From Bryopsis sp. KO-2023 (taxonomy: Eukaryota > Chlorophyta > Ulvophyceae > Bryopsidales > Bryopsidaceae), in assembly GCA_030272585.1 (NCBI GenBank), contig BSYQ01000009.1:4960001-5024000 (forward strand): a stretch of DNA of 64,000 bases. The letters run 5' to 3'. Under the pieces are notes generated by a model. That model saw nothing but the letters and a program-made list of their open reading frames with translations, was not told the origin of the DNA and ran no database searches. A program made the position numbers and the translations under genes. This document shows, piece by piece, positions 14,228 through 60,930 of the stretch (position 1 is its first letter; every line of letters begins with the position of its first letter).

Positions 14228-16204
14228 TTACTCATCCACCCCATTACCCCCCTCTTTCCCAGGCAGACATAACAGATCTGGCCTGTACACCCTAACCAGC
14301 CGCGAATAGCAACTCTCCACATCAACCAGTTTGCCTTTGCACCCCACAAAATCCTTCATAATTTCGTACTCTCTGAACTCCTCCATCGCAGGCTCCAAAT
14401 CTTCCAGCACTTTGCCCAACCCCAGCATCGTCAAGGCATCATTGCCGTTTTGATCCTTGGTCAGACATCGGGAAAGATGCAGGACAGCCTCCAACTGTTT
14501 CTTCAGCAAAGACCGCCTTTGAGCAACGCTCAAAATCCTGCTCTCAGCCACCCCGATGATCTGGCCGATCACCAGCTCGACTCCAGCTTTTTGCACAAAC
14601 AGTTTATCGATTTGTGTCTGACCCTGTGCGCCAGTGCTTGCAAGGTGAAAGAGGATGGCTGCCAATAACGTCAGGGACTCCTCCAAGATTCTTGCCCCCA
14701 GGCTTGCTAAATCCACAACCTTCACGGAGGAAAACAGTTCAGAATAGAGCCTGAGGCTGTCCAGAATCATTCCCACAACACCCAAGGCGATGCCTCGGGC
14801 CATGGTCTTGGGATGGTTGTGGAGAGCCAATGTGTAGAAGAAAATCATGTTACAGAAAATATAGATCGTGGCCTCTAATTCTGCCAGCTCAGCGTCAGGT
14901 TTAGCCAACGATTTCGCCCGTTGACGAATTTCTGGAAAGCAGACGTCAATGCATCTGTGGTAGACGTCGAACAAACCGGTTTGAAGGATCTCGTCCTGCA
15001 GAGAGGTGGTTTTCGAAAACTTGATCAATAACGGCGTCATAACTGCGCTGGAAATATGCGTGACGATGAGAAACCACCCCAAGTCGTGCGATGGATTTGC
15101 TTCGCCGAGAAACCAACGTATCCGCTTGAGAACCTCTCGACGGCTTACTGCGTCAAGGATGCGCTCCTTGCTCAGGTCCCGGCTCTGGCAGACAGCCACG
15201 CTCAATGAATTCATCCAAAACAAGCAGCTCACTGCGCTATCGGCGTTGTCTCCTTCGGGACTGTCGAGCATTATGCTTGCATCGAAGACCTTTTCCACAA
15301 GGTCTTCCGTCACAGACGGCTCCACCACGCAAACGTGTTGGAAAAGGTCGTTGCAAGTTAGCAACGAGATCGGACAGCGTGTTCCCAGTGCCACACGCAC
15401 CATTTCCATCACCAGCGACGGCACGTCCCCCGTAATTATGACAGAAGACAGCCCCGAAAAGAATTCCTCCCCCTCCTCGTCGCCCATCGCTGACCGGTTT
15501 TGATACAGCAAAATTGACAGTACGTTCATTATCCGTCTTGCAAGCGATACTCCAGGCAAACCCCAGTGCCCCACGCATCCCGAGAGGAGACCACACAGAG
15601 CTTTCACTGTGCTTTCCGTAACAAGGGTTTTTAATTCTGGCGAGGAACAATTTGGTGTTGCAGCGAGAGGGTCCTGAGCTGCCAAATCCACGACCGCACC
15701 ACAGCGACTGGGCCTCAGACCCAACCCAGACGTGAGCAAACGAATCAAAATCTGCACCCCGCTAACCGCAACAGGGCTAGGCACTGGCTGCGCTAGGAGT
15801 GTCTCAATTGCAAATCTCAGTTGAGGAACGGATAGCAACACATTCGGCGCCGACAGCCCGAAAAGAGATAGGAACTGGCAAGCGACGAACATCACCGCCT
15901 CGTCTTCATACTCCAGGACTTCGCATGCTCGGCCTGCCACACTCCTCAGCAGCACCGTCGAATCCTCCACAACACACCAACCTTCACGCAAGGACGAGCA
16001 CAATATACCGAACGCCTGGCGAACAACTCGGCTGTCTTCTTCAGACAACACGGATTGCCTCAAAACTCCATCAAGGAGGTCATCGACGACGGTCAAAGCT
16101 TGCATCACTCTTTGCTTGTCGCCTAGTGTCCCTTGCAACGCGGACAAAGCGCTGATCGCTTTGAGAAGGTGGGGCTGGCGAGGTTTAACAGCGAGCATCG
16201 CCAT
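14228..16204 (-). CDS. Single-exon alpha-helical (ARM/HEAT-like) protein, unknown family
   Basis: This 658-residue uninterrupted frame is the longest here without introns, and it is GC-rich like neighbouring exons. It starts MAMLAVKPRQPHLLKAISAL; a second Met at position 3 is an alternative start. The whole length is Leu-, Val- and Ala-rich amphipathic helix with regular ~40-residue spacing, for example AVMFVACQFLSLFGLSA, GVQILIRLLTSGLGL and ARILEESLTLLAAILFHLA, as in armadillo or HEAT solenoids. No signal peptide, catalytic motif or membrane segment stands out. Such solenoids usually act as protein-binding scaffolds, but the partner and role are unknown. The absence of introns is odd in this window. 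Confidence 0.75.
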   Translation of the reverse strand: MAMLAVKPRQPHLLKAISALSALQGTLGDKQRVMQALTVVDDLLDGVLRQSVLSEEDSRVVRQAFGILCSSLREGWCVVEDSTVLLRSVAGRACEVLEYEDEAVMFVACQFLSLFGLSAPNVLLSVPQLRFAIETLLAQPVPSPVAVSGVQILIRLLTSGLGLRPSRCGAVVDLAAQDPLAATPNCSSPELKTLVTESTVKALCGLLSGCVGHWGLPGVSLARRIMNVLSILLYQNRSAMGDEEGEEFFSGLSSVIITGDVPSLVMEMVRVALGTRCPISLLTCNDLFQHVCVVEPSVTEDLVEKVFDASIMLDSPEGDNADSAVSCLFWMNSLSVAVCQSRDLSKERILDAVSRREVLKRIRWFLGEANPSHDLGWFLIVTHISSAVMTPLLIKFSKTTSLQDEILQTGLFDVYHRCIDVCFPEIRQRAKSLAKPDAELAELEATIYIFCNMIFFYTLALHNHPKTMARGIALGVVGMILDSLRLYSELFSSVKVVDLASLGARILEESLTLLAAILFHLASTGAQGQTQIDKLFVQKAGVELVIGQIIGVAESRILSVAQRRSLLKKQLEAVLHLSRCLTKDQNGNDALTMLGLGKVLEDLEPAMEEFREYEIMKDFVGCKGKLVDVESCYSRLVRVYRPDLLCLPGKEGGNGVDE

Positions 16205-16793
16205 TGCGAACTCTGGAAAACGACCGGGTTTCCGCTGGAGCTTGCAACACCCGGGTTGACAGATTGCAGAAGTTTGTCACGAAAACCCTATCCAGTCAAC
16301 TATGCATTTACACGAACAAAACGATCCCTGCGCTTGATAGATTTTGTAATTTGTCAAATCTCTTTCTTCAATTGGAGTTGTGGCGACTGTGGGTGTCCCA
16401 GATGCACTGCACCTGCATGCTGGAGAGCCCAAACCTTGTGTTGCAGTTAATTGACTTCGTTCTGGGGGAGGATGCCTGAACAGTAGACTGTGATTTCAGT
16501 TATGGTTTTGTCAAAGGCAGTTGACTGAATCTAACAAGAGAAGGATTCCTTTTCGAAATGGAACACCTTCGTTCCCTGGCTTGACGTTGACGAGGTCCGT
16601 GCTGTCGCCAAGGCGTCTATCGTTTGCATTTCAGCCAATCTCCATTTGGGCACTCACCCGCTGTGCCTCAGTTCCCTTTCAAGGTGAATCAAGGCCACAA
16701 TGCGGATGTAGAACGCAACAGGGACGAATGAATGTTTTTGAACAATAAAAGCAATGTTCCCACTGTGGTGGTGTACACTTACAGATCATAACG
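16205..16793. other. Divergent spacer between helical-repeat gene and TTLL
   Basis: This is the region between the start codons of two divergent genes. A plus-strand frame ending at 16479 (LQLIDFVLGEDA then stop) has protein-like composition but no in-frame ATG or neighbouring exon that could be defended. The stretch presumably contains both promoters. Confidence 0.45.
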
Positions 16794-19700
16794 ATGCCCA
16801 TGAAATCAAAGCACAACTTGAGCGATTTCGGGAACTTTCGTGACGACGAGCGGGCAGCCTCCCTTTCTGAATCGGACGGTTCGCAATCCACCATTCAATC
16901 AATTTCGGCGTCGGAAACGCCACCCCAGTCACCCCGCACCACAATCACGCCGGATTCCTCTGACCATGATTCGTGTAGCGACGATTCAAGCGCTGTGGAA
17001 GAAGATATCAGTCTGGACAACTCAGATGATGACCTTAGTTTTGCTGGCTTGACGGAGTGTGAAGATGGACTTCCGCTGCTGTTCAGAGGAGCCAGAATCA
17101 GCAGGGATGGTCTGCAGTCCGAAGTTGGTTCACTCACAGACATTTCCACAGCGATCTCCGATGACGACAGCCAGTCCAGTTCCATATGGGAAGTGGTGGG
17201 AAGTAGAGAGAGTGCCGAATCCCTGAACAAGGTGCAAGTTCTCCCTTCTGACCCCACGTCCGCAGCATTGACGATAAGCCAATCGTGGGAGCCCAGGAAA
17301 CGAGCAGGGGAAGGCAACTGTGATTATGTCCAGAGCCATGCTGGTCGCAGGCGAAGCGATTCGTCCCTGTCTTCACAAGAAGCCACCAGCCAGGAGAACT
17401 CGACGAACCAAGCGAATTCCACAAAATTATCACAAGATGCGAAGGTTGCGCAGGGCAGGAACAACAGCGGCTTAAAACTCCCTCTTCCACCTGACCCCTT
17501 GCGCTCCATCCCTGTCACCCCACCGACTGTTCTTGGCACAAGGGCGCCAATCTCACATCGCGCAGGCTCACAAGAGAAGTACCCGGCAAAGCCGCCACGG
17601 TTCACAAAAAAACAGGGTCCAGTCAGGCCTTCGAACGCCCCCCATGATCGCAAGAGCGAGAACAGCAAGCGATTGTGCTCCGCCAAAAAAACTATCAGGA
17701 AAGATCAAACATCGCAAGGCGAGACTTCGGGGAGCAGCAGCAGCCAGAAGGCGTATGCTATTTCTAAAGCTGCGACTGCTCTGGCAGCCCTGCGTCTGGG
17801 TCCCGATCAGCCAAAGGTCACCGTGTCTATGGATAAAAAGCAGCGACCATATCCACACCTGCTCCCGTCGCCTGTCCCTAACATGCCAGCAACCATTTGC
17901 TTTAAGGGAACGCCAGAGGAGAAGCAAGCTGCGGGCCTTCATCCATTCACAAAAAGAAAAGTCTTTGTAAGATTCAACGGTATAGCTAATACGCCGGTTC
18001 GATTGGCATTCATGAAAGCAGGGGTGCGGTGCGGAAAATCAACAAATTCGTGTCGCTGGCATGTCCTTTGGGGTTGTCTTCCGCGGCCAGAGACTCTGAG
18101 GCGTTTGAACAGGTGCCAACTTGGCAGCAAGCGCTTCCTGGTATGCATGAATGAGAAACCAAGAACCCTCATCGCGAACAAATACTCACTAAGCACCCTG
18201 TTGGTCAATAAACGCAAGTCGCAGCTTTTTCGTCCTTCTCTTTATCAACATGGACCCTACCCAAAAGTTTCACCGACCTTTACTATTGCTTTCAGGCACC
18301 AGCGAGTCAACCACCTACCTGGAACTTGGGAGCTGGGGAGGAAAGATAGATTGTATCGAAACATCTCCCGGCTAAGAAGAGCCAAAGGTCTCGAGTTCGA
18401 CATAACCCCCCAATTCTTCATTCTCCCAAAAGACAGGTCAGAGCTAAAGCTGGATGCATCCCGCCACCCAAGCCGCTTGTACATTCGCAAGCCTGTTGCG
18501 TCGTCGAGAGGGAGAGGAGTGAGGATGGTGCAGAAACCATCAAATATCCCCAAAAGGAAAATATGCCTTGTGCAGCGATACATCCACAATCCATTGACGA
18601 TCCATGGATACAAGGTCGATGTGAGGTTGTATGTGGGGGTAACGTCTCTGGACCCTTTGCGAGTGTATCTTTTTGAAGATGGTTTGGTCCGATTCGCCAC
18701 GGAAGTATACACACGCGACAAGGTAGGGAACGATGCCTCCGAGTTTTTTTTTTTTGCGGAAGCGGGGGGGGAGGATAACGAAGTTCTCATAAACTTTACA
18801 ATACACTGGTGCCGCCACATGTTGAGCGGCTTTGTTTTTTTTATTTGGTCGCAGGCGACTTTGAGTCGAAGGTGCATGCATTTGACGAATTACAGTGTGA
18901 ATAAGCGTCAAGACAATTTTGTCAAAAACATGGACGCGGAAGATGATGGGGTGGGTTCGAAATGGAGCCTGAAAGCTTTGAGGCGCTTTCTTGAAACCAA
19001 CAGGGGAGTCGACTGGCGGAAAATACAGTTGCAGGTACAAATTGGCGTCCACAATTGTATCGCCACTGTGTGACCAAGGAATTGGATGCCCAAAAGTTCA
19101 TCAGCGAAAAAAATAGCAGAATGCCAAAGACTAAAGTCTTAACTGTTTTGGTGTGTTTTGACTCAGTTCCATGATATCGTTGCAAAGACGATGATCAGCG
19201 TGGAATCCAAAATGAACAACCAAGTGCACATGAGGCTTCCCAATGGGGCAACCTGCTTCGAAGTTTTGGGCTTCGATATTCTGCTGGACGATAACTACAA
19301 GGCCTGGCTGATTGAGGTCAATGCGTTCCCAGACTTGGGTGCATCCTCCCCTCTCGACCTTAAAATCAAGTTCGGGCTCATCGAAGATATGTTGAATATG
19401 ATCGGAATCGTGCCGTGCGACGTGGGTGCTATCCGCCGCAAGGCCCGGCTTGGAAGGCAGAAAAAGCTCCATATCGGACCAGAGAACAGCAAAAAGATCA
19501 AGGGCCCGAAAACTACCAAAGAAGCTTTTGGGATGCATTTTGAAGGTACCCAAGTCCCTGTGCTGTTGGTTGTGGAGCGCAACGTTTTCGTTTCAACGCT
19601 ACGGAACGGCATTCGTTCTCTTTCCCAGACGGTCGACGTATTGTTTGGCATGTGTAGGGCGATCGCTCGGGGATATGCCCGAAACCATCAAGCAATCCGA

Positions 19701-24724: not shown

Positions 24725-27700
24725 ATGAGCGACTGGGAAAAGCAAAAGCGAGTTATCCTGCCGTACCTGCAGGTCGGGGGAATCTTGGACAGGATTTCGT
24801 TTGTTTGTGTATTGTGTGTGGAGGTGCAGCGAAACTCTGAATGCTGTTCGATGCTGTGTGCAGAGGGCGGAGGAAATAGACAAGGTCGACGATAAGGTCG
24901 CGTACTACAGTCGACTTTATGCTGTTGATCAGGTGAGCATTTAGGTCCGGTTTGCCATGTCTTTTCTGCCCTTCTGGATGCTACTGCAGGAAAAAAAAAA
25001 ACAAAACAGGGAAAGTGCTCATGGCTGTGACGAGCTGTTTGCTGTTTTCGACTTCCGAAGGGGTCGCGTCGATACGCAGACACAACGAGAATTGTTTAAA
25101 GAGAAAAAAAACGCTTTTCGAAACTTGGAGGAGAGCTGCTTGTCCCTTTTGGGATGATGCTGACGAACCCTTGGTTGAAAAAACTGTGGTGGTGCTGTCA
25201 CCTGATGGAACGTTAAACAGAAACAAAAGACGAAAGCCGTGGTGTCCAGCATGTTCATATTCTTCATTTTGGAATGACACTTGAAATCCAACCTGACCTT
25301 TTTGTGGTGTTTGGAAAAAAAAAAACTGTAAGTTATTTAAAAAAATTTTGTCAGTTTTTCTTTCACTCAGGTTTGGTTGAATCCCCCTTCCATGCAACGA
25401 GACGTCATCATGTCTGACCTTAGCAACCAGCAGACTAAAAACGATTGCGCTCCAAAACATAGTTTTCAATCTGTTTTTTTATCGAGTTTCTTTTTCTTCG
25501 AAGTGGGTCCTGAAAAGTTTTTTTTTTTTTTTTCTCAAGAAGTGTGGATTTCAGAATTTCAAACATTTCAACTGTATATATATGTATATGTATATATAAC
25601 TCCGGTGTTCTGTTTTTGGTCAGGGTATAAATTTGGAAAACAGGCATCCCAAAGCCGATGAATTGTTGAGCGTTGTATTGACTCAATTGGAGAAACACAA
25701 ACCCTCTTCTGAGCTGAATCAAGATGAGGACAAAAAGCACTGTGAAAGGTTTGCCTTGAAAGTGTTTCGCAAAGCCCAGAAAAAAGACGTGCAAGGGGTG
25801 GTCGACAGAGACACCGCAAAGGCATATTACGCAGCTTTCAATTTTCTCGAGGTTTGTGTTTTTTGGTTTATACATGTTCCAATTTTTTCCTTTTTTTTTT
25901 TTTTTCTTGTCATCTCTCACACAACCTTGTCGTGTCTCACACAAGCACAGTGACTTCGCGATTTATAACTGTGCAATATATTGCGCTGTCGGTCGACATA
26001 TATTGCTGGTGATTTTTTTCGAGTGGATGAGGTGGTTTTCTCGGAGCCTGATGCCATGGTCGAAATCCATAAATTCAATCCTGGCTGAAAAAGTAACCTT
26101 TGCCTATTTAACTGGAGTTTTCCAACAAGAAATCAAGTCTGTTGCAAATTCGCCTGCAAATTCAAAGCGTGTTTTTTCATGCATTTCTTCAAACTTCGCT
26201 TAGGGATTCAGAAGGTCGCACGCCCAGGGGGGGGGGGGGGAACATAAATCGAATCAACAAAATTTGAAATATGCAACCTCAACAATCGCGATATCTGGTT
26301 GTGGCTGCGATATGCACTCAACCTTTTTGACGGCAATTATCCACACTTCTTTTTTTTTTTTAAAGACAGTTTGTTCATCTTTTTTTCCCCCAGATTCTGA
26401 AGCAGTTTGGAGATTTGGCAGCCGAAGTCGAACGGCTCCGTCGATTTGCTGTTTATCGTGCTTCCGAAATCAAGAAAGCCATCGACGAAGGGAAGGAACC
26501 CCCTCCCATCGGCATGCAGCAAGAAGAAAACGAGATGGCTTCGTCACAACCCCTCAGTATGTGTCGATTCACCACCTAAAAAATATATATTTTTTTGATA
26601 TGTTTTTGCATATCAACTTTTCAAAAACAGGCAAAATCTCCCATATTTGAATTTCACGAAGCCCCTAGTTGTGTGAAAACCTCCACCAAGGCGAAAAAGT
26701 TCAATAACGTTATTATGTTTATTTATTTCTTTTTTGAAAACGTTCGGATGTTGAGCTGGAGTATTGCCAGAAGCATTTGATCGAGTGACGAGGTTCTTTT
26801 CTTCTTTTTTTTCCAGTCGAATTCGACCCTGGCTACCAAGTCGGACTGAGAGTACTGTGTACGGAAGATGGGGTAACTCCGGGAGTGTCTGCCATCGTTC
26901 AGGCCGTGTCTGGAGAAGGTGAGAAGTCCCCTCCCCTCCTTTCATCTTTTTGGGAAAGAAACCCAACTGAACACAGTCGTATAAAGTTTGTTTGTTTGTT
27001 TTTTGGGGGGGCAGTTCTTTTTTTTCTTTTGGGGTCGGCTTATTGAAACCTTCGATAAGCTAAAAAGAGTGTCGATCGAAGTCTCATGGAGTTTCTTCCT
27101 GTTCAACTGTTTTGAAAATCTTGAATATCCTCCACTGAAAAACAAGGTTTTAATTAATTTTCTTTTTTTTTCAGGGCGGAAAAAAGATGATTTTTCTTTT
27201 TCTTTTTTTTTCCCTCTCCATGTTGTTCTTTTAATGCGTAATATTTTGATGTTTTTTCTTCTTCTTCTGTTTTGTTCATTTTCCTAGTTGGCGGTTGCTT
27301 CGATGTTGAATTGCTGCCGTCAGGAAAGGTTTTGGAAATGTCGACAACCTTTCTTGCACCCGAATTGCCTAAGGGAAGCCGAGTAACTTATTACTCACCC
27401 GAAGGCCTGCAATTCGAAGGAGAAGTTACGGAAATGAACAAAGAAGCATGGTGAGACAATAATGGTGCCCATTATTAACATAGCAAATCCTCGACACGAT
27501 TCAACATTTATTTTTTCACTGGTTTTTATTGCTATTGAAAACTGACACCCCCCCCAAAAAAATTCATTGTAAAAAAAGTTCGGAACGAAAAAAAAAAACA
27601 AAAAAAACAGGAACCAACTTTCCACTTTTTTTTTGTGAGCTTATCTGAAGAACAATATCTTTTTTTTTCTTTTCAAAATATGTTTTCAAAAATACATCTT

Positions 27701-29095
27701 TTTCTTTGCAGCAGACACCGAATTGAATTTTCAGTTGAAAGGTTGGGAAAAAAAAGCCTGATTGAATTTTTGCCCCTGAACGCTCCCCAGGCCTCCTGTT
27801 TACACTCTGCAATTGGAGAATGGCACCGTGGCCACCACCAAGCATTCGAATTTCACGCTGACTTATGTCCCCATAGTGTGCAACACATCGGGTTCGTGGC
27901 TTGTCCGAACAGAATCGCATGCTAAAGGTTTGCCTGCAACTGCAGCTATATGCAACACCCTTTTCCATAATTTAAAAAATAATAAAAAAATGTAAAAATA
28001 TATATATTTTTAAGAAAGGAAAACAAGCATGAACCTGCAGTTCATATATGTTTATATTATTATTATATTATTCATTAGCCCGCATATTTAGGCTTTGCTT
28101 TACGTTCGTCGATGTTAGACATCGGTGAAGGAACCTGTGTGGCTCTTGAGTTTGTGGATTTTTTTTGTGGAAAAAAAATGCTGATTCTTTTTTTGTTGCC
28201 AAAAAAAATGAAGGGAGGACTGCTTCACAAGAAACCAACAATTCAGCACCGGCTCCGCCCCAGCCTTTTCCAGGTGAGAATTTTCTGCTTTTCCTCTTGC
28301 AGAGAGTGAATATGTTTTTGGCAGGGGGCTGAAAACGAGCCTTTACAGCAAACCGAAATGCAATGGTGTGGATCCAGACATTTATTGCTTTCTACTTCCA
28401 AAAAACACGAAAATCGGTTTCAATATGCAGTATGTGTGTTCCATCTTGGTTAATGTATGAACTGGCTGAGCTCCGGTGGCCATTCCATGCCAGTTAACAG
28501 GATTTTTCCAAAAACTACAGGTCTTGCTGAAGCTGACTCATTTATTGTTCCTCCATCGCTCGAGCCAGCTGGCACGGACGACTTCAAGGCTTTATTACCC
28601 CACCCCGACGCCATCCCACCGGAGCCAGTCAACGGGGGGGACCACCACACCATGGACGTCACTTACCCCACCGAATCTGCCGATGCGCGGCCGCATCAGA
28701 ACGGGAATTACGACCGGGTGGATGTCCTGGCTGGTCTGACTTCATCCGGGCAGCAGCCCCATGAATCTCAGTTCGCCCCGCCTCCACCTGCACCGGTAGA
28801 TTCTCAGCCGCCGCCTCAGTTCCCTAACGTGGTCCCCAGTCAGCCTCCTGTTCAATATCCTGCACAGTATCCTGTGACTATGGTGGTTCCCCAAGAGTCT
28901 GCCCCTCAGCCAGCTCAGCCCCCCCCCTTGATGTTGAAGCGCCCCCCGAATTTCGAACCAGACCTGCAAGCCATCGAGGATGCAAAACGCTGTGCTAAAT
29001 ATGCCAACACCTCACTGAATTTCAGCGACGTCGATAATGCGATCGTATATCTTACGGATGCCTTGAAAATTCTCACCGGACAGACAGACAGGTAG
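24725..29095 (+). CDS. LIP5: LIP5/VTA1, ESCRT-III/VPS4 cofactor with inserted small-barrel repeats
   Basis: Exons are 24725-24772, 24864-24932, 25624-25851, 26394-26556, 26817-26918, 27288-27450, 27791-27927, 28214-28273 and 28521-29095, giving 514 residues. LIP5/VTA1 activates the VPS4 ATPase that disassembles ESCRT-III on endosomes. The N-terminal Vta1 domain (about residues 1-170) shows KRVILPYLQ, VAYYSRLYAV, FALKVFRKAQKKD, DTAKAYYAAFNFLE and ASEIKKAIDEGK. The C-terminal VPS4-binding helices are AIEDAKRCAKYANTSLNFSD and AIVYLTDALKILTG. The linker is Pro-rich as in plants. Residues about 185-320 (exons 5-7) are unusual: two copies of a Tudor-like barrel (YQVGLRVLCTEDG and LPKGSRVTYYSPEG ... 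YTLQLENG), not expected in LIP5. Confidence 0.92.
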
Positions 29096-30567: not shown

Positions 30568-31797
30568 TTAAACCTGTGCCAACATCTTCTGCAAGTCTGC
30601 CAACACTGGTGTGACCGCTGCATCTCGATTTTCCTTTGTGAGGGTGATTAATTTTACATCGGGCCGGTTTTTTATCATCGGGACCTGCACCACTCAGAAA
30701 ACAGAAAAATGCTGAAGTTGCAGAGGCCCTTTAATTTAGGAAATTCTGTGCAGATGACCTCAACATGGAAATTGAGAGGGCTGACTGTATCTTAAAGTTT
30801 TGGGTTTCTCTGTTGGTCCAATGGAAGTTGATGTTGAAATGGCGGGTGTCAGTTGAGTTACTGTAATATCTATATTCAGAAGAATTCATCCCAAAAATCG
30901 GGTATGCTGGATATTTTTACACTTATTCGGAACTGGAGCTCAGATTTTCCCAAACTCGGCTTTTTCTCACCAGCAAATTATTGGCCTTGACAGGAATGAC
31001 CCCGAAGACCAGCAACCCACTGTCCAAGGCACTTGAGACAGCAGTTATGAAGTGTTGTGAGAAGAGCTCCATTTTCCCTGTCAAAACGAACCCAAAAAAT
31101 TTCAAGAAAGGTGCATCAGTTGAAGTCTCAAACAGGTTCTTGCTCCAGATAGTCCACCATCAAATCTGAAATGGGATGCACCAGGATGAATTCCTTGAAT
31201 TCAACAGCAGCAACGGAGGCTCTGACAAATATTGACATGGAAGTGCGTTGGAATTTGAATTTGGAGGCCATGGACACTTAAATGAGCCAGAGAGTCAGAA
31301 TCAGCATAGTCTCACATTGAAAGAAAATCAAAATCAGTTAACCCACCAATTTCATCTATTACAATCATTTTAGTCTGGCCCCCAGGAATCAGCTCAGGCA
31401 ACGCGATGTGCTCAAAAGATGCTAGATCCACAGCATATCGGCCCACAGTTGGACCAACCTGCAATGAATTACAAATCAGAAAACAACAGTCCTCCAAAAA
31501 AAATGAGTCCCCAGAATGAATGCACAAGCCATGTATTGGATCCGTCACGTAGCGATACGTGATGGGTAACATCGTTACCGTGGAGGCGTTACGCAATCTC
31601 GCCAGAGGGGCTCTGCCGCCCGCAAGGGTGACCACATCGAAACCGATTCGTCCGTGCTCTCCCCGAACCTCCTCCGTGTAAAATCCGGTGGCGACTGACG
31701 AGATATCGTGATCTTTTCTCAACTGCTGCAACACCACCTTAACCAGCGTGGATTTGCCCACACCAGGCATGCCCGTCAGCATGAGATGCTTCGCCAT
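30568..31797 (-). CDS. NTPCR: THEP1/NTPCR-type nucleoside-triphosphatase
   Basis: Exons from 5' to 3' are 31797-31579, 31458-31347, 31077-30971 and 30684-30568, giving 184 residues, the usual family length. The start MAKHLMLTGMPGVGKSTLVK places the Walker A P-loop at residues 9-16 as in human NTPCR. Then come GFYTEEVR, GRIGFDVVTLAGG, VGRYAVDLASFE, MIVIDEIGKMELFS (Walker B) and VFGVIPV. The last exon holds KNRPDVKLITLTKENR. The family hydrolyses NTPs slowly in vitro; its cellular role is unsettled. An in-frame Met upstream (MSHLGILPRE, 32004) would add 69 residues without homology and is rejected. It lies head-to-tail downstream of DXR with 644 bp between coding regions. Confidence 0.92.
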
Positions 31798-32441
31798 TTC
31801 GTTCAGAATAATCAAGGTATCGAGGATGCCATTTTTGACTTGAGGGTTTTGTGCTGGAACAGTCTCACAGCCCCTCAATGTAGTACTGCGCTTGTTGGAC
31901 CAGGGCAGGTCCAAATGTATAAGGCAATAATCAGAAATGACAAAACTGAGGGGCCCCTTCTCAGGGGTCACTTCCTCCCTAGGAAGGATCCCCAAGTGCG
32001 ACATCTCATGCTGTGCAAATTTTTTCAGGGGGTGTCACTGAGAGCTGGAAATGGGTGGGGTGCTTTTTCCTATGTTCATGTGTTCGTATCGACACACATC
32101 GAACAGCACTTGCTGCTGAATGGATTCTCTTGTTCCTTTGAAAAACTTGAAGCAAGATGCCAAGTTGATCATTCTATTTTGTAAAGGTTCAGAGAGCATC
32201 GATGATTTGAACTGACAATGAAAACTGTTTCCTCCCAAGATGCACTGAAAACCGCAATGATTTTCCATCCCAGGGAAGAAAAAAAAACGAAGCAACAATA
32301 ATTCATCTGCCCTCCCCCCCCAAAATAAAAAATAAAAAAAATAGCAGAATGCAAGCTGTTTTTTCCATATCAAAATTTGAATCAATACGAATAGGACCCA
32401 GAATCAAGTTTTCTTTCCCATGCAAAACGAAATGCGGTGAC
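31798..32441. other. Spacer between NTPCR and DXR
   Basis: The stretch holds the 5' leader or promoter of the NTPase gene and the 3' flank of DXR, both on the minus strand. The first ~200 bp are open in the NTPase frame but show no conserved motif. Nothing else is recognised. Confidence 0.55.
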
Positions 32442-43296: not shown

Positions 43297-44694
43297 TGTG
43301 AATTTGATTTTAACTTCGTGGTGGTCTTTCCCATAATTCGAGAGGGCAAAGCATGGAAAAAAAAGCTTGGAAGTGTAAGGATAGATCGGAGAACAGCAGC
43401 TCCAACAAATTAGTTATCGAGAGAAAAATATGTAGAATAGGTTTTATTATCTGCTGGAGTTTTTTTGAATCAGTTCTTGACCGCGAAGGTGAGGGGACCG
43501 AGGGGGGCTAGGTACTAAAAGTGAAGTTACAGGGAATGAAGTGAGGGCAAGAATGTGTTTCGTTTCGGGGCAAGATATTAATAGTTGGGAATGGTATTTT
43601 TGATTTATGGAACCTTTCATTTGATTGACACAGGATCGTGTGCGTGTGTGTCAATATTTGCACACAAATATTTCCAAAAACTATCTACACCTTCCCACTG
43701 AAAACCATAAACGATTTCTTTCATTTCTCATTCAACAACACAGGTTTGGGAAAGTCTCTATTGGAATCAGATGTTATCCACTCTTTCCACTCATACACGT
43801 GTAAGCAAATCAGATATTTTCTTGTAGCTTTGTTGGGAGCCCAGCAGGTGGTCGACTGATCGAACAGAGAAGACAGAAACCACGAGGAGGCAGTTTTTGG
43901 AAAGGTTTCTGTATGATGTGATATCGGGGGCAGCCAGGAACTACTGAGACAGCTAGCTTGCTGATGTGCATTTCCCCCCCTCCCCCTATAACCAACCCCC
44001 GACCCCTAGCCCCTATTCATTCATCGTTAGGATCTTTTGCCTGACGGGGAGGACTTCATTTTCCACCTGACCCCCTTTTTTTCCGTTTCACCGAACTTTA
44101 CATTTATCCATTCCCAGCCATATTGAGCCCCATCGCATCTGTTCTCTGACTGTGGTGGCTGACTTGTTCTTTTCTCGCGAGGAGAAGGAAAAAGGGCGGC
44201 ACATCCACCCAACTACATGTCCAGCTGTGCTGTGTTTTTTCCAACCTAACATCACCTACTGTGGAATCAAAACAGAAAAAAATGAACTAAACACCACGAA
44301 AGAAGGCGAAAAAAAGAAAAAAAAGAAAAAAAGGGGAAAAAATAGAGAAAAAGAAGGCAGAAGCAAAGTTTTTCGCCTGTCACCGCAAAACTCGGATCCA
44401 CGTCGGATTTTCCCTCCAGAAATTACTGTGGTGTTTTGTTGAGCTGGAAGGTTTTCATCCGTGTTCGTACTTTCGACCTGGCGGGATTCGACGTAGTGGG
44501 AAGACACCAGCTGGGATGCGACCACTCAGAAAGAACCAGAAAGCAGAAGGAAGCCACGTGACGGCGACGTAACTGCCTCTCAGCTTTGCAGCGTCTTCCA
44601 TCGAACTTTTTATAGGGATGGTACATAAATCACCAAAAACCCGCAGCCAAACACAAGCGCACTTGACCGGTCTACACAAACCGAAAGCGGAAAA
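43297..44694. other. Spacer between CKS1 and kinase gene
   Basis: No supported gene. Poly-purine GAAAAA runs near 44300-44360 give Lys-rich frames. The final ~250 bp, richer in GC, should hold the kinase promoter and 5' leader. Confidence 0.55.
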
Positions 44695-46165
<1,471 letters not shown>

Positions 46166-57619: not shown

Positions 57620-58708
57620 CTTTACCCGCTCCCCGTACCTTCACGACACAGAACCCGTACGCTGGAAACCAACCTCGACACGAAAGAAACACCAATGCGC
57701 TTGAGGTGAGGCCTCCAACCAAAGCGCAATGGCGCTCGCATCATATACTCTCGAGCTAAGGAATGCAAGTGGGGTGTAACGGAGGGTTAAAGTTTCGAGG
57801 GTATCGTCCGCACGTAAAAACCTGCGCGACGTCCATATGATGTGCGATTTCGAGCGACTCTAGAAAGTCAACCACTAAAGAAGGGAGGACGCGCGCTAGG
57901 GATGCTTTCCTTCACACAGCTTTTTCAATTCTCGACGATACCACACACGAAACACCCTCCTCGCCTTTCCGTGTTCTAACTGACGCCTCTTGCAGTTTCG
58001 TAACGCGCCCAAACCTTGGAGTCACAAAGCATTTCACGATACTGCAAACAGGATCCGCGTTCACCCTCACGACTACGGCGAAAAAAAAACACACACGCAG
58101 TGGCCCTATAGCAAAACGTCGAAACAGGAAAAGCACTCGTGAAAGCGCACAGGACCGGAATCCAAGGTTTCGATTCGCACACCTTCAAAAATCTATCTAA
58201 AAGCCAGTTTTGCTTATCACGAGGGGTCCGTGCTAGGCACGCGGAGGGGAGCGGCGCGGGTTTGAAGCAAAGCAGCAAGAGAACCGCAGCACACCCCCGA
58301 GGCAAAAAATACTGCCCGATAGCTGGGGTCCCTTCATGACTCCAGATTCAAATCAACCCATTGCGTAAGCGCTGTACATGTTGCGCCGCATTCTGGTGGG
58401 ACAACTCAGTGCTCAGATCGCGACCAAATCGCGCATCGGTCCATTGCGCCGCACCATGGCCCGGAGCAAGATACGGAAACGAGTCGTTACCCCACGAGCT
58501 TCGGTCCGCCGTTTCCGGGGGCGCGTGGTCGCTGCGTATGTTTTGCCGTTCCGAAAGCCAGCAACGCCAGAAACTACACACATGGGCGCGTCCAATGAGA
58601 TCACCTAACCATAACGTCACGGAGGAGCCCCCCCAAAAACTACCATACATTGCACTCTCCTTTGGACTGCTTTGGACAATTCGAAAGGGCTTCCGTCGAC
58701 GCTTTATC
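57620..58708. other. Divergent spacer between NT-C2 and RCC1 genes
   Basis: This GC-rich stretch lies between two divergent start codons and should contain both promoters. Frames on both strands are open for up to 170 codons but are Arg-rich, overlap one another and show no motif. The plus-strand frame is continuous with RCC1 exon 1, yet the upstream part has no RCC1 signature. Confidence 0.5.
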
Positions 58709-60930
58709 ATGACGTTCTCGGTGCGACGTCTGCTGTTTTGCTGGGGAAATGGGGACTTTGGCCGTTTGGGGATGGGATCGGATCTGTCGAGCGTGTTGGT
58801 TCCGAAACTCTGCGACGCTTTGGCTGGGTTCAACATCAAGCAAGTGGCCTGTGGCGGAGCGCACACTGTTGCTCTTGCAGGTGCGCGAAAATCTTCTCCA
58901 CCAAATTCAGTCCGACGCTAGGCCTTTGAACCTGAAAAACGAAAAAGTTTATGCACCCTGTAGCAGACTTTTTAATTTTTGTTGTGTACAAGAGGAGAAA
59001 ATACAGTGACCATCAAACTCTCATCAGTTTGAGTTTTGAAATTTAATGGTTCACTGACACAATTCTGATCTTTTCAGATTCAGGGGAGGTTTGGACATTT
59101 GGGCTGAACGCTGATGGTCAGTTGGGCCACTCAGAAAAAGTCCAGCATGCATCCGTGAGTCAACTCCAATTCCCCCGCTATTCTTTTTCAACTACTTCAG
59201 AATTTGTCAAAAGCAAAACCCAACCCCCCCAAAACTTGTTTCCAGGATGTGTTATAACAACATGGATGCGTGGCAAAGGAAATTAAGCAACATATGGATA
59301 TGGAGTTGTTTTTCACAAGGTTTGACCAAGGTTTGCTCTTCACCCCTGACACTGGGATTGTATCGCTAGGAGCCTTTTTCTGCACCAATTCCGGAGCCTG
59401 TCGTTTCAATAGCAGCGGGCCACCACCACACATTGTGTCTAGGAGGTGAAAAACTAAAAACTTGAACGTCTGATATGAGGGCCCATGCGCAACAGAACGA
59501 TGCACGGAAGAAGGTCAATGAACCAGTTCATGTTGTTTTCTTCACAGAGAGTGGGAGCGTTTGGAGTTTCGGCCGGAATAACGAAGGGCAATTGGGGCTG
59601 GGGAAGTCGGTGCAGAGCAGTTGGATGCCAAGAATGGTGGATCAAGTAACAGGTGGAGAATTGAGGGTAAGCTCCAGAAGATCGGGTTTTTGAAAACGAT
59701 AGGTTGTGGTCAAGGATTATGATTTGTATTGGGCTGGGTTTTTTCTGCTGGTGAGCGAATTATTTGCTGTTATTATTTGTTATTTATTATTCGTTGTTTT
59801 TTCAGGTGTTGGAATCGCGGCTGGGGCTGCACACTCTGTGGTGGTAACGAAATCCGGTGAAGTTTTTTCGTGGGGAAGAGGGTCGTTTGGACAACTGGGG
59901 CATGAGCCTGGTAAGTTGTTTTCCTCTTTTTTTTGAACAGTTGGCTGCTGTTGCATCGGCGATGGATTTGGACAGTTTGATCCATTGAGAGAGTGAAAAC
60001 TGTCCACTTCTAGCAACCTCAACTTGATGTTTTTTGTTTCTTTTTCCCTCCATGGACAGCATCCAGAGGGAATTTTGGCAGAGCCAATTTGAGGGATGAG
60101 GCTTTCCCCAGAATGATTAGGGATCTCCGTGCGTACAATGTGGAGAAAGTCTATGCTGGGCATGACCATTCTGGAGCGATCGATGTGGAGGGCAGGGTGT
60201 TCATGTGGGGTCTTGGGCGTGCATGGCAACTCGGGCTGGGCCATAATCCTGAAGTGGTGCACTTGCCTACTATTGTGAGTCGTCGAATCTTACCAGTTAA
60301 GGTTCCCAGGACAGACTCAAACAAGTAGTGGAATGATAAAAAAACACAAAAAACACACACGGTGCTATTGACACACATTCTTCGTAGTCATGAGTGAGGA
60401 GCTTTGAAGTACGGATTGGACCTCCCTCTTTTCAATTTTTGGAGACGATTTGGAGTGCAGTTTTGACCTTGTGTGGAACATAGGTGGGTGAAATTCCTGG
60501 AGCTTCATCATTGGCACTCGGTTGCAGCCATTCCATTGCTGTACGCCATGAATCGACCTACATCTGGGGCACCAACGATTGCGGAGTTCTTGGATTGAAC
60601 GCAGAAGAGAAAGCCATGGTGCCGACCATCATCCCCAATCTAACGCTGAAACAAGTCAGTGGAGGCTGGAAACACTCGGGCGGCATTACGCCTACCGGCA
60701 AATTGTTCATGTGGGGCTCAGGGGGGTCTGTCGGCCACCCATCAGGATTGTATGAAATTGGGAAGCTGAGTTGTGGAGGCCAATTGGGGTTGGGGGATGA
60801 CTACGACCGTTTGGAACCGACCGAGGTTAAGAATGATTGGGCGGAGAAGGGGACGGCGTCTGCGTTTGCGCAGATTTCTTGTGGGTTCAATCACACAGCT
60901 GCATTGTTGGAGGTTCGGACTGAGGATTGA
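58709..60930 (+). CDS. RCC1-repeat beta-propeller protein (seven blades)
   Basis: Exons are 58709-58880, 59078-59154, 59370-59445, 59548-59652, 59806-59910, 60060-60274 and 60484-60930, giving 398 residues. Seven RCC1 blade motifs can be counted: CWGNGDFGRLGMG, TFGLNADGQLGHS, SFGRNNEGQLGLG, SWGRGSFGQLGHE, MWGLGRAWQLGLG, IWGTNDCGVLGLN and the last, MWGSGG ... GGQLGLGDD. Each is followed by an ACGGxHT-type strand, for example QVACGGAHTVALA and SIAAGHHHTLCLG. That makes one full propeller with no other domain, as in RCC1 itself or small UVR8-like proteins. The specific partner cannot be told. Blade seven contains a 45-nt in-frame stretch (60726-60770) that may be an unspliced mini-intron. Confidence 0.88.

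Follow-up and report, generated by a model that had tools for sequence, protein, structure and literature searches.

LIP5/VTA1, a helper protein of membrane remodelling, is described as a connector with two ends, a tandem-MIT (tMIT) domain and a VSL domain, joined by a flexible linker (PMC5413351, PMC12051064). The linker of yeast Vta1 is about 100 residues long, and the VSL dimers bind adjacent Vps4 subunits (PMC5413351). A 2025 review of plant endosomal sorting complexes required for transport (ESCRT), in its passages on LIP5, gives the protein only VSL and MIT domains, and its main text does not use the words Tudor or linker (PMC12051064). The gene considered here lies in a 64,000-nucleotide stretch of the genome of the green alga Bryopsis sp. 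KO-2023 (contig BSYQ01000009.1, positions 4,960,001 to 5,024,000, forward strand), which is referred to below as the window. Its product follows the order of tMIT, linker and VSL found in yeast, animal and flowering-plant LIP5/VTA1. However, where yeast Vta1 has its flexible stretch of about 100 residues (PMC5413351, as above), the Bryopsis linker includes two predicted barrels. As far as sequence, clade and predicted fold show, the flexible linker of the chlorophyte LIP5s retrieved holds a pair of homologous Tudor/SH3-like barrels.

The gene and its domains

The gene and its parts are arranged as follows.

24725..29095, forward strand: LIP5/VTA1 gene, nine coding exons, 514 amino acids, GenBank BSKO_10726 (splice model, database protein and Pfam domains)
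24725..26556, forward strand: exons 1-4, the tandem-MIT (Vta1) domain (approximately residues 1-150) followed by a short linker
26817..27927, forward strand: exons 5-7, in-frame cassette encoding the tandem barrels, 402 nucleotides or 134 codons
26817..26918, forward strand: exon 5, first half of barrel 1, to codon 204
27288..27450, forward strand: exon 6, latter half of barrel 1 plus first half of barrel 2, to codon 258
27791..27927, forward strand: exon 7, remainder of the W258-P-P-x-Y motif and latter half of barrel 2, followed by a tail of low confidence
28214..29095, forward strand: exons 8-9, linker rich in Pro and of low confidence, then the C-terminal helices of the VSL (Vta1_C) domain

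The protein deduced from the splice model is identical to BSKO_10726 across all 514 amino acids (100%). It has the N-terminal tandem-MIT domain (Pfam Vta1, residues 11-146, expectation value (E) 1.4e-35) and the C-terminal VSL domain (Vta1_C, PF18097, residues 474-509, E 1e-9, 38.3 bits with a cut-off of 26.3). Helices are predicted in the VSL region at 472-490 and 494-509, and F491 is among the columns retained in at least 90% of 33 proteins. Judged by its domains, the Bryopsis gene encodes the ordinary LIP5/VTA1 cofactor of VPS4 in its chlorophyte form. An earlier note made from the DNA alone had already called it LIP5/VTA1, and the limits which that note gave for an insert, 26817-27927, coincide exactly with the outer ends of exons 5, 6 and 7. 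Searched in six frames with the Vta1 model at E <=0.001, the assembly (91.1 Mb in 28 contigs) yields a single place, exon 3 of this gene. The assembly also contains matches of the Vps4_C type (best E 4.9e-20), the Snf7 type (best E 2.4e-33) and the Ist1 type (E 2.7e-28), and these candidates, judged by their sequences, are the likely partners of LIP5 in Bryopsis.

As exons 5-7 comprise exactly 134 codons and are flanked on both sides by phase-1 introns, they make up an in-frame cassette. The reading frame stays open when all three are omitted, giving a protein of 380 amino acids with no stop codon inside it.

Distribution and ancestry of the insert

A total of 134 LIP5 proteins were compared. 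The first searches supplied 15 of them, and the 120 Vta1-domain matches listed (out of 398) supplied the other 119; the sample reaches no streptophyte algae, no bryophytes and not most of the prasinophytes. A full-length profile search built from seven proteins, with scoring limited to the 7991 candidates that had the most words in common with it, returned 14 proteins, none of them new. The profile of the insert matches 39 of the 134 proteins at E <=2e-14, and the next best match has an E of 0.63. A profile made from six Bryopsidales-type sequences finds 38 of the same 39 at E <=7e-4, with P0037 at E 1.4 and the best outsider at E 4.

The carriers are 16 entries without an organism name and all 23 named chlorophytes among the matches listed: Bryopsis, Ostreobium, three Chlamydomonas (including CHLRE_03g145227v5), two Volvox, Pleodorina, Edaphochlamys, Haematococcus, Polytomella, two Coccomyxa, Myrmecia, Parachlorella, three Trebouxia, Botryococcus (named from the tag Botrbrau1), Symbiochloris, Chloropicon and two Chlorella. 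The insert is absent from the other 95 proteins, which are all 78 named flowering-plant LIP5s and all eight fungal-type LIP5s among the matches listed (six of the eight are named fungi) together with nine proteins without an organism name. The genera were placed in what we take to be their groups, chlorophytes, flowering plants or fungi. The claim that yeast and flowering plants have a linker and nothing else at this position is thus borne out for the retrieved flowering-plant and fungal-type proteins, and for yeast by the linker described above.

When a tree is built from just the Vta1 domain (30 of the 39 insert-bearing proteins, 14 of the 78 plant and five of the eight fungal-type ones), the 30 insert-bearing rows form one side of a single branch with support of 99/99 (99% of 200 bootstrap trees). 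Among these rows, Chloropicon and its relative P0069 separate from the other 28 (95/87). The root of this tree is drawn at the midpoint, and its plant rows are left unresolved. By their Vta1 domains, the insert-bearing LIP5s belong together, and a single gain before the sampled chlorophytes diverged would be the simplest reading. We infer that the ancestor of the sampled green algae acquired one small barrel, which was later duplicated. The insert may instead have been lost in the line leading to flowering plants, as the sample holds no streptophyte algae.

A novelty specific to Bryopsis is rejected, since the insert occurs in 38 other LIP5 proteins retrieved. The earlier note had itself held that a common occurrence among described LIP5s would refute its proposal; among the chlorophytes retrieved the insert is common, and no description of it was found in the titles or abstract openings of the open-licence papers listed, nor does the locus name Cre03.g145227 have a match there. 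The finding is therefore smaller than first thought in that it is not an oddity of Bryopsis, and the functional role is a proposal. It is also larger, being a feature of the whole lineage as far as sampled, the model alga Chlamydomonas included. The predicted folded module in the linker would thus be part of the green-algal ESCRT machinery, and no study of it was found in that literature.

Two related units with a predicted barrel fold

The insert consists of two units, for which we set the boundaries at residues 174-229 and 230-283. When profiles of the units built from 33 proteins are aligned with each other, the score is 51.7 over 50-52 columns. Shuffling the columns 40 times for each of two master sequences gives no score above 12.9, and the reversed profile scores 15.6 and 16.6. 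The profile comparison argues that the two units are homologous, and they are read as a tandem duplication, in agreement with the two similar repeats of about 55 residues that the earlier note had described. Introns 5 (26919-27287; codon 204, phase 1) and 6 (27451-27790; codon 258, phase 2) interrupt the two units at nearly equivalent sites, codon 204 aligning with codon 257, and intron 6 splits the codon of the invariant Trp258. This suggests that duplication of the unit carried an intron along, although it is no more than suggested, as the phases of the two introns differ.

Structure predictions and region identities were made from alignments of the 39 insert-bearing proteins. The first fold and the identities used 33 of them (without P0021, P0022, P0023, P0037, P0071 and P0114, which were judged odd or shortened gene models), the second fold used 27, and the sequence search of the PDB used 18 segments. 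Both units are predicted to be five-stranded barrels. In the predicted models the order of elements in each is E-E-E-E-(H)-E, a short helical turn preceding the last strand. The predicted local distance difference test (pLDDT) score, averaged over ten-residue blocks, is 91-97 in the barrels, except for 78 at 171-180 and 77 at 201-210, and is below 55 throughout 281-460, the Pro-rich linker region. Foldseek and VIA match the models to Tudor domains, so that the prediction of Tudor/SH3-like barrels in the linker holds on the predicted models.

The sole Pfam match of the insert is DUF3860, at a non-significant E of 0.2. Scans of 33 insert-bearing proteins find Vta1 in all 33 and Vta1_C in 30; besides these LIP5 domains one match lies below 0.01 (TOBE_2, one member, E 0.0045), and the 10 families listed at E up to 1 include no Tudor, Agenet or KOW family. 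A single-sequence search of the Bryopsis genome with the insert finds only the three exons of LIP5 itself, and diverged or exon-split copies could escape such a search.

Among known structures, the KOW2-KOW3 pair of Spt5/DSIF has a similar fold and is the nearest in the arrangement of its two barrels (43rd in Foldseek, E 4.2e-4). It differs in sequence, with 19% and 17% identity in the alignments with the barrels, and Spt5/DSIF is a transcription factor rather than an ESCRT cofactor. The tandem Tudors of 53BP1, UHRF1 and KDM4A share the common barrel fold, with Foldseek E down to 2.7e-5 for the named 53BP1 entries. The whole 53BP1 pair, however, superposes badly (root-mean-square deviation 9-10, TM-score by target about 0.42), and the likeness to the KDM4A double Tudor is a weak one of sequence.

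Conservation and possible function of the barrels

The position that stands out in the insert is Trp258. It is invariant in the 33 rows used for column counts (P0021, P0022, P0028, P0037, P0071 and P0114 set aside), being followed by Pro in 29 of them, with Pro260 in 30 and Tyr or Phe at position 262 in all 33. Aromatic residues (F, W, Y, H) make up at least 30% of seven columns only, 176, 184, 208, 238, 239, 258 and 262; of these, 184, 238 and 239 have one in 22, 24 and 14 rows, respectively. In our reading 184/238 and 208/262 occupy equivalent places in the two units, and these residues are therefore more likely to belong to the core.

By combining these observations, it is possible to propose how the module might work. 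The N-terminal tandem MIT would bind the tails of ESCRT-III, the C-terminal VSL helices would form dimers and attach to VPS4, and the pair of barrels would be a third docking module that captures another protein. Capture would most likely occur close to the loop of barrel 2 that bears the invariant W258-P-P-x-Y, and the ligand would most likely be an unmodified peptide, either Pro-rich or another linear motif. As LIP5 dimers line the VPS4 hexamer, each disassembly machine would carry many copies of the module around it, and thus even a weak site could be enough to bring VPS4 to a given membrane or partner or to keep it there. That the barrels serve the VPS4 cofactor by docking proteins, the W258 loop being the likeliest site, seems to us somewhat probable. 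A new recruitment function, already put forward in the earlier note, remains a plausible proposal, and the interpretation given there is, as a whole, partly supported. More tentative, although quite possible, is the idea of a chlorophyte reader, made of tandem Tudor/SH3-like barrels and having W-P-P-x-Y as its hot spot, which brings the machine that disassembles ESCRT-III to a partner or membrane peculiar to the lineage, for instance in cilia, cell division or wound repair. If true, this would be a layer of ESCRT regulation without an equivalent in yeast, animals or flowering plants.

Several observations weigh against a docking role. The barrels are far less conserved than the ends of the protein: mean pairwise identity, with gaps counted as mismatches, is 0.54 in the tMIT and 0.50 in the VSL, 0.29 and 0.28 in the barrels, and 0.12 and 0.135 in the linkers. 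Among the six proteins outside the column counts, four have the Trp; Polytomella (P0022) keeps the region and has lost it, and P0037 (314 amino acids) stops ahead of barrel 2. In Myrmecia (P0028) the beginning of barrel 1 is missing. All three may be poor gene models. Trp258 itself may be structural rather than exposed. The modest conservation and a structural Trp would also suit a spacer or internal regulator, which would set the distance between tMIT and VSL or pack on LIP5's own tMIT, MIT ligands or Pro-rich tail, needing no outside ligand. In Chloropicon, in agreement with this, the last tMIT helix (122-143) and the first strand (164) lie only some 20 residues apart. The same stretch, however, exceeds 100 residues in Chlamydomonas (P0025), and such a variable length fits poorly with a fixed spacer or with packing on the tMIT. 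Furthermore, Trp258 lies between the predicted strands 245-254 and 261-266 and no aromatic residue corresponds to it in barrel 1, so that the pattern shared by the barrels does not by itself account for it. We regard this explanation as unlikely, though deserving of serious attention.

The docking module might instead recognize methylated lysine or arginine, like the tandem Tudors of 53BP1, UHRF1 and KDM4A. Foldseek lists the Tudors of 53BP1, UHRF1, SETDB1 and BAHCC1, and the top PDB sequence match is the KDM4A double Tudor, at a non-significant E of 0.12. The aromatic cage of methyl-reading Tudors is built from the beta1-beta2 loops and beta3-beta4 turns. In the LIP5 barrels no column of the loops 185-193 and 240-247 or the turns 213-217 and 267-271 is as much as 30% aromatic in the 33 rows, counting sequence columns only; the more aromatic columns 184, 238 and 239 are neighbours of these loops. 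LIP5, moreover, acts in the cytosol. Binding to modified tails, as once suggested for these barrels, is weakened by the lack of a conserved cage, and methyl reading appears improbable. Still less probable is a pair that binds nucleic acid or ribonucleoprotein. The resemblance to the Spt5 KOW arrangement speaks for it, but no KOW match accompanies that resemblance, and a common fold proves no function. Finally, the exons of another gene might have been joined to LIP5 in the annotation. Intron 7 (27928-28213) ends in AAAAAAAATGAAG, a pyrimidine tract that is poor compared with most other introns of the gene, and yet the splice matches GenBank. In 38 more proteins the insert likewise comes after the Vta1 domain, and its carriers group together in the Vta1 tree. 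As indirect evidence that exons 5-7 share a transcript with the rest of LIP5, three entries, P0022 and P0038 (source mmetsp) and P0099 (transcript-style name), which we take to be transcripts from these marks, carry Vta1 and the insert in one open reading frame. Gene fusion or mis-splicing is rejected on the GenBank identity, the 38 other proteins and the single branch of the carriers, and an annotation artefact is hardly credible.

Other features of the window

The window contains further open frames. On the reverse strand, 14228-16276 is an open frame of 682 codons with no Pfam match at E 0.01, and 31312-32034 has an NTPase_1 domain (PF03266, E 2.1e-22). On the forward strand, a long open frame at 16749-19073 has a tubulin-tyrosine ligase domain (PF03133, E 3.9e-51), a protein kinase domain lies at 44629-45249 (E 2.1e-35), and an RCC1 repeat is found at 58340-58921 (E 5.6e-13).
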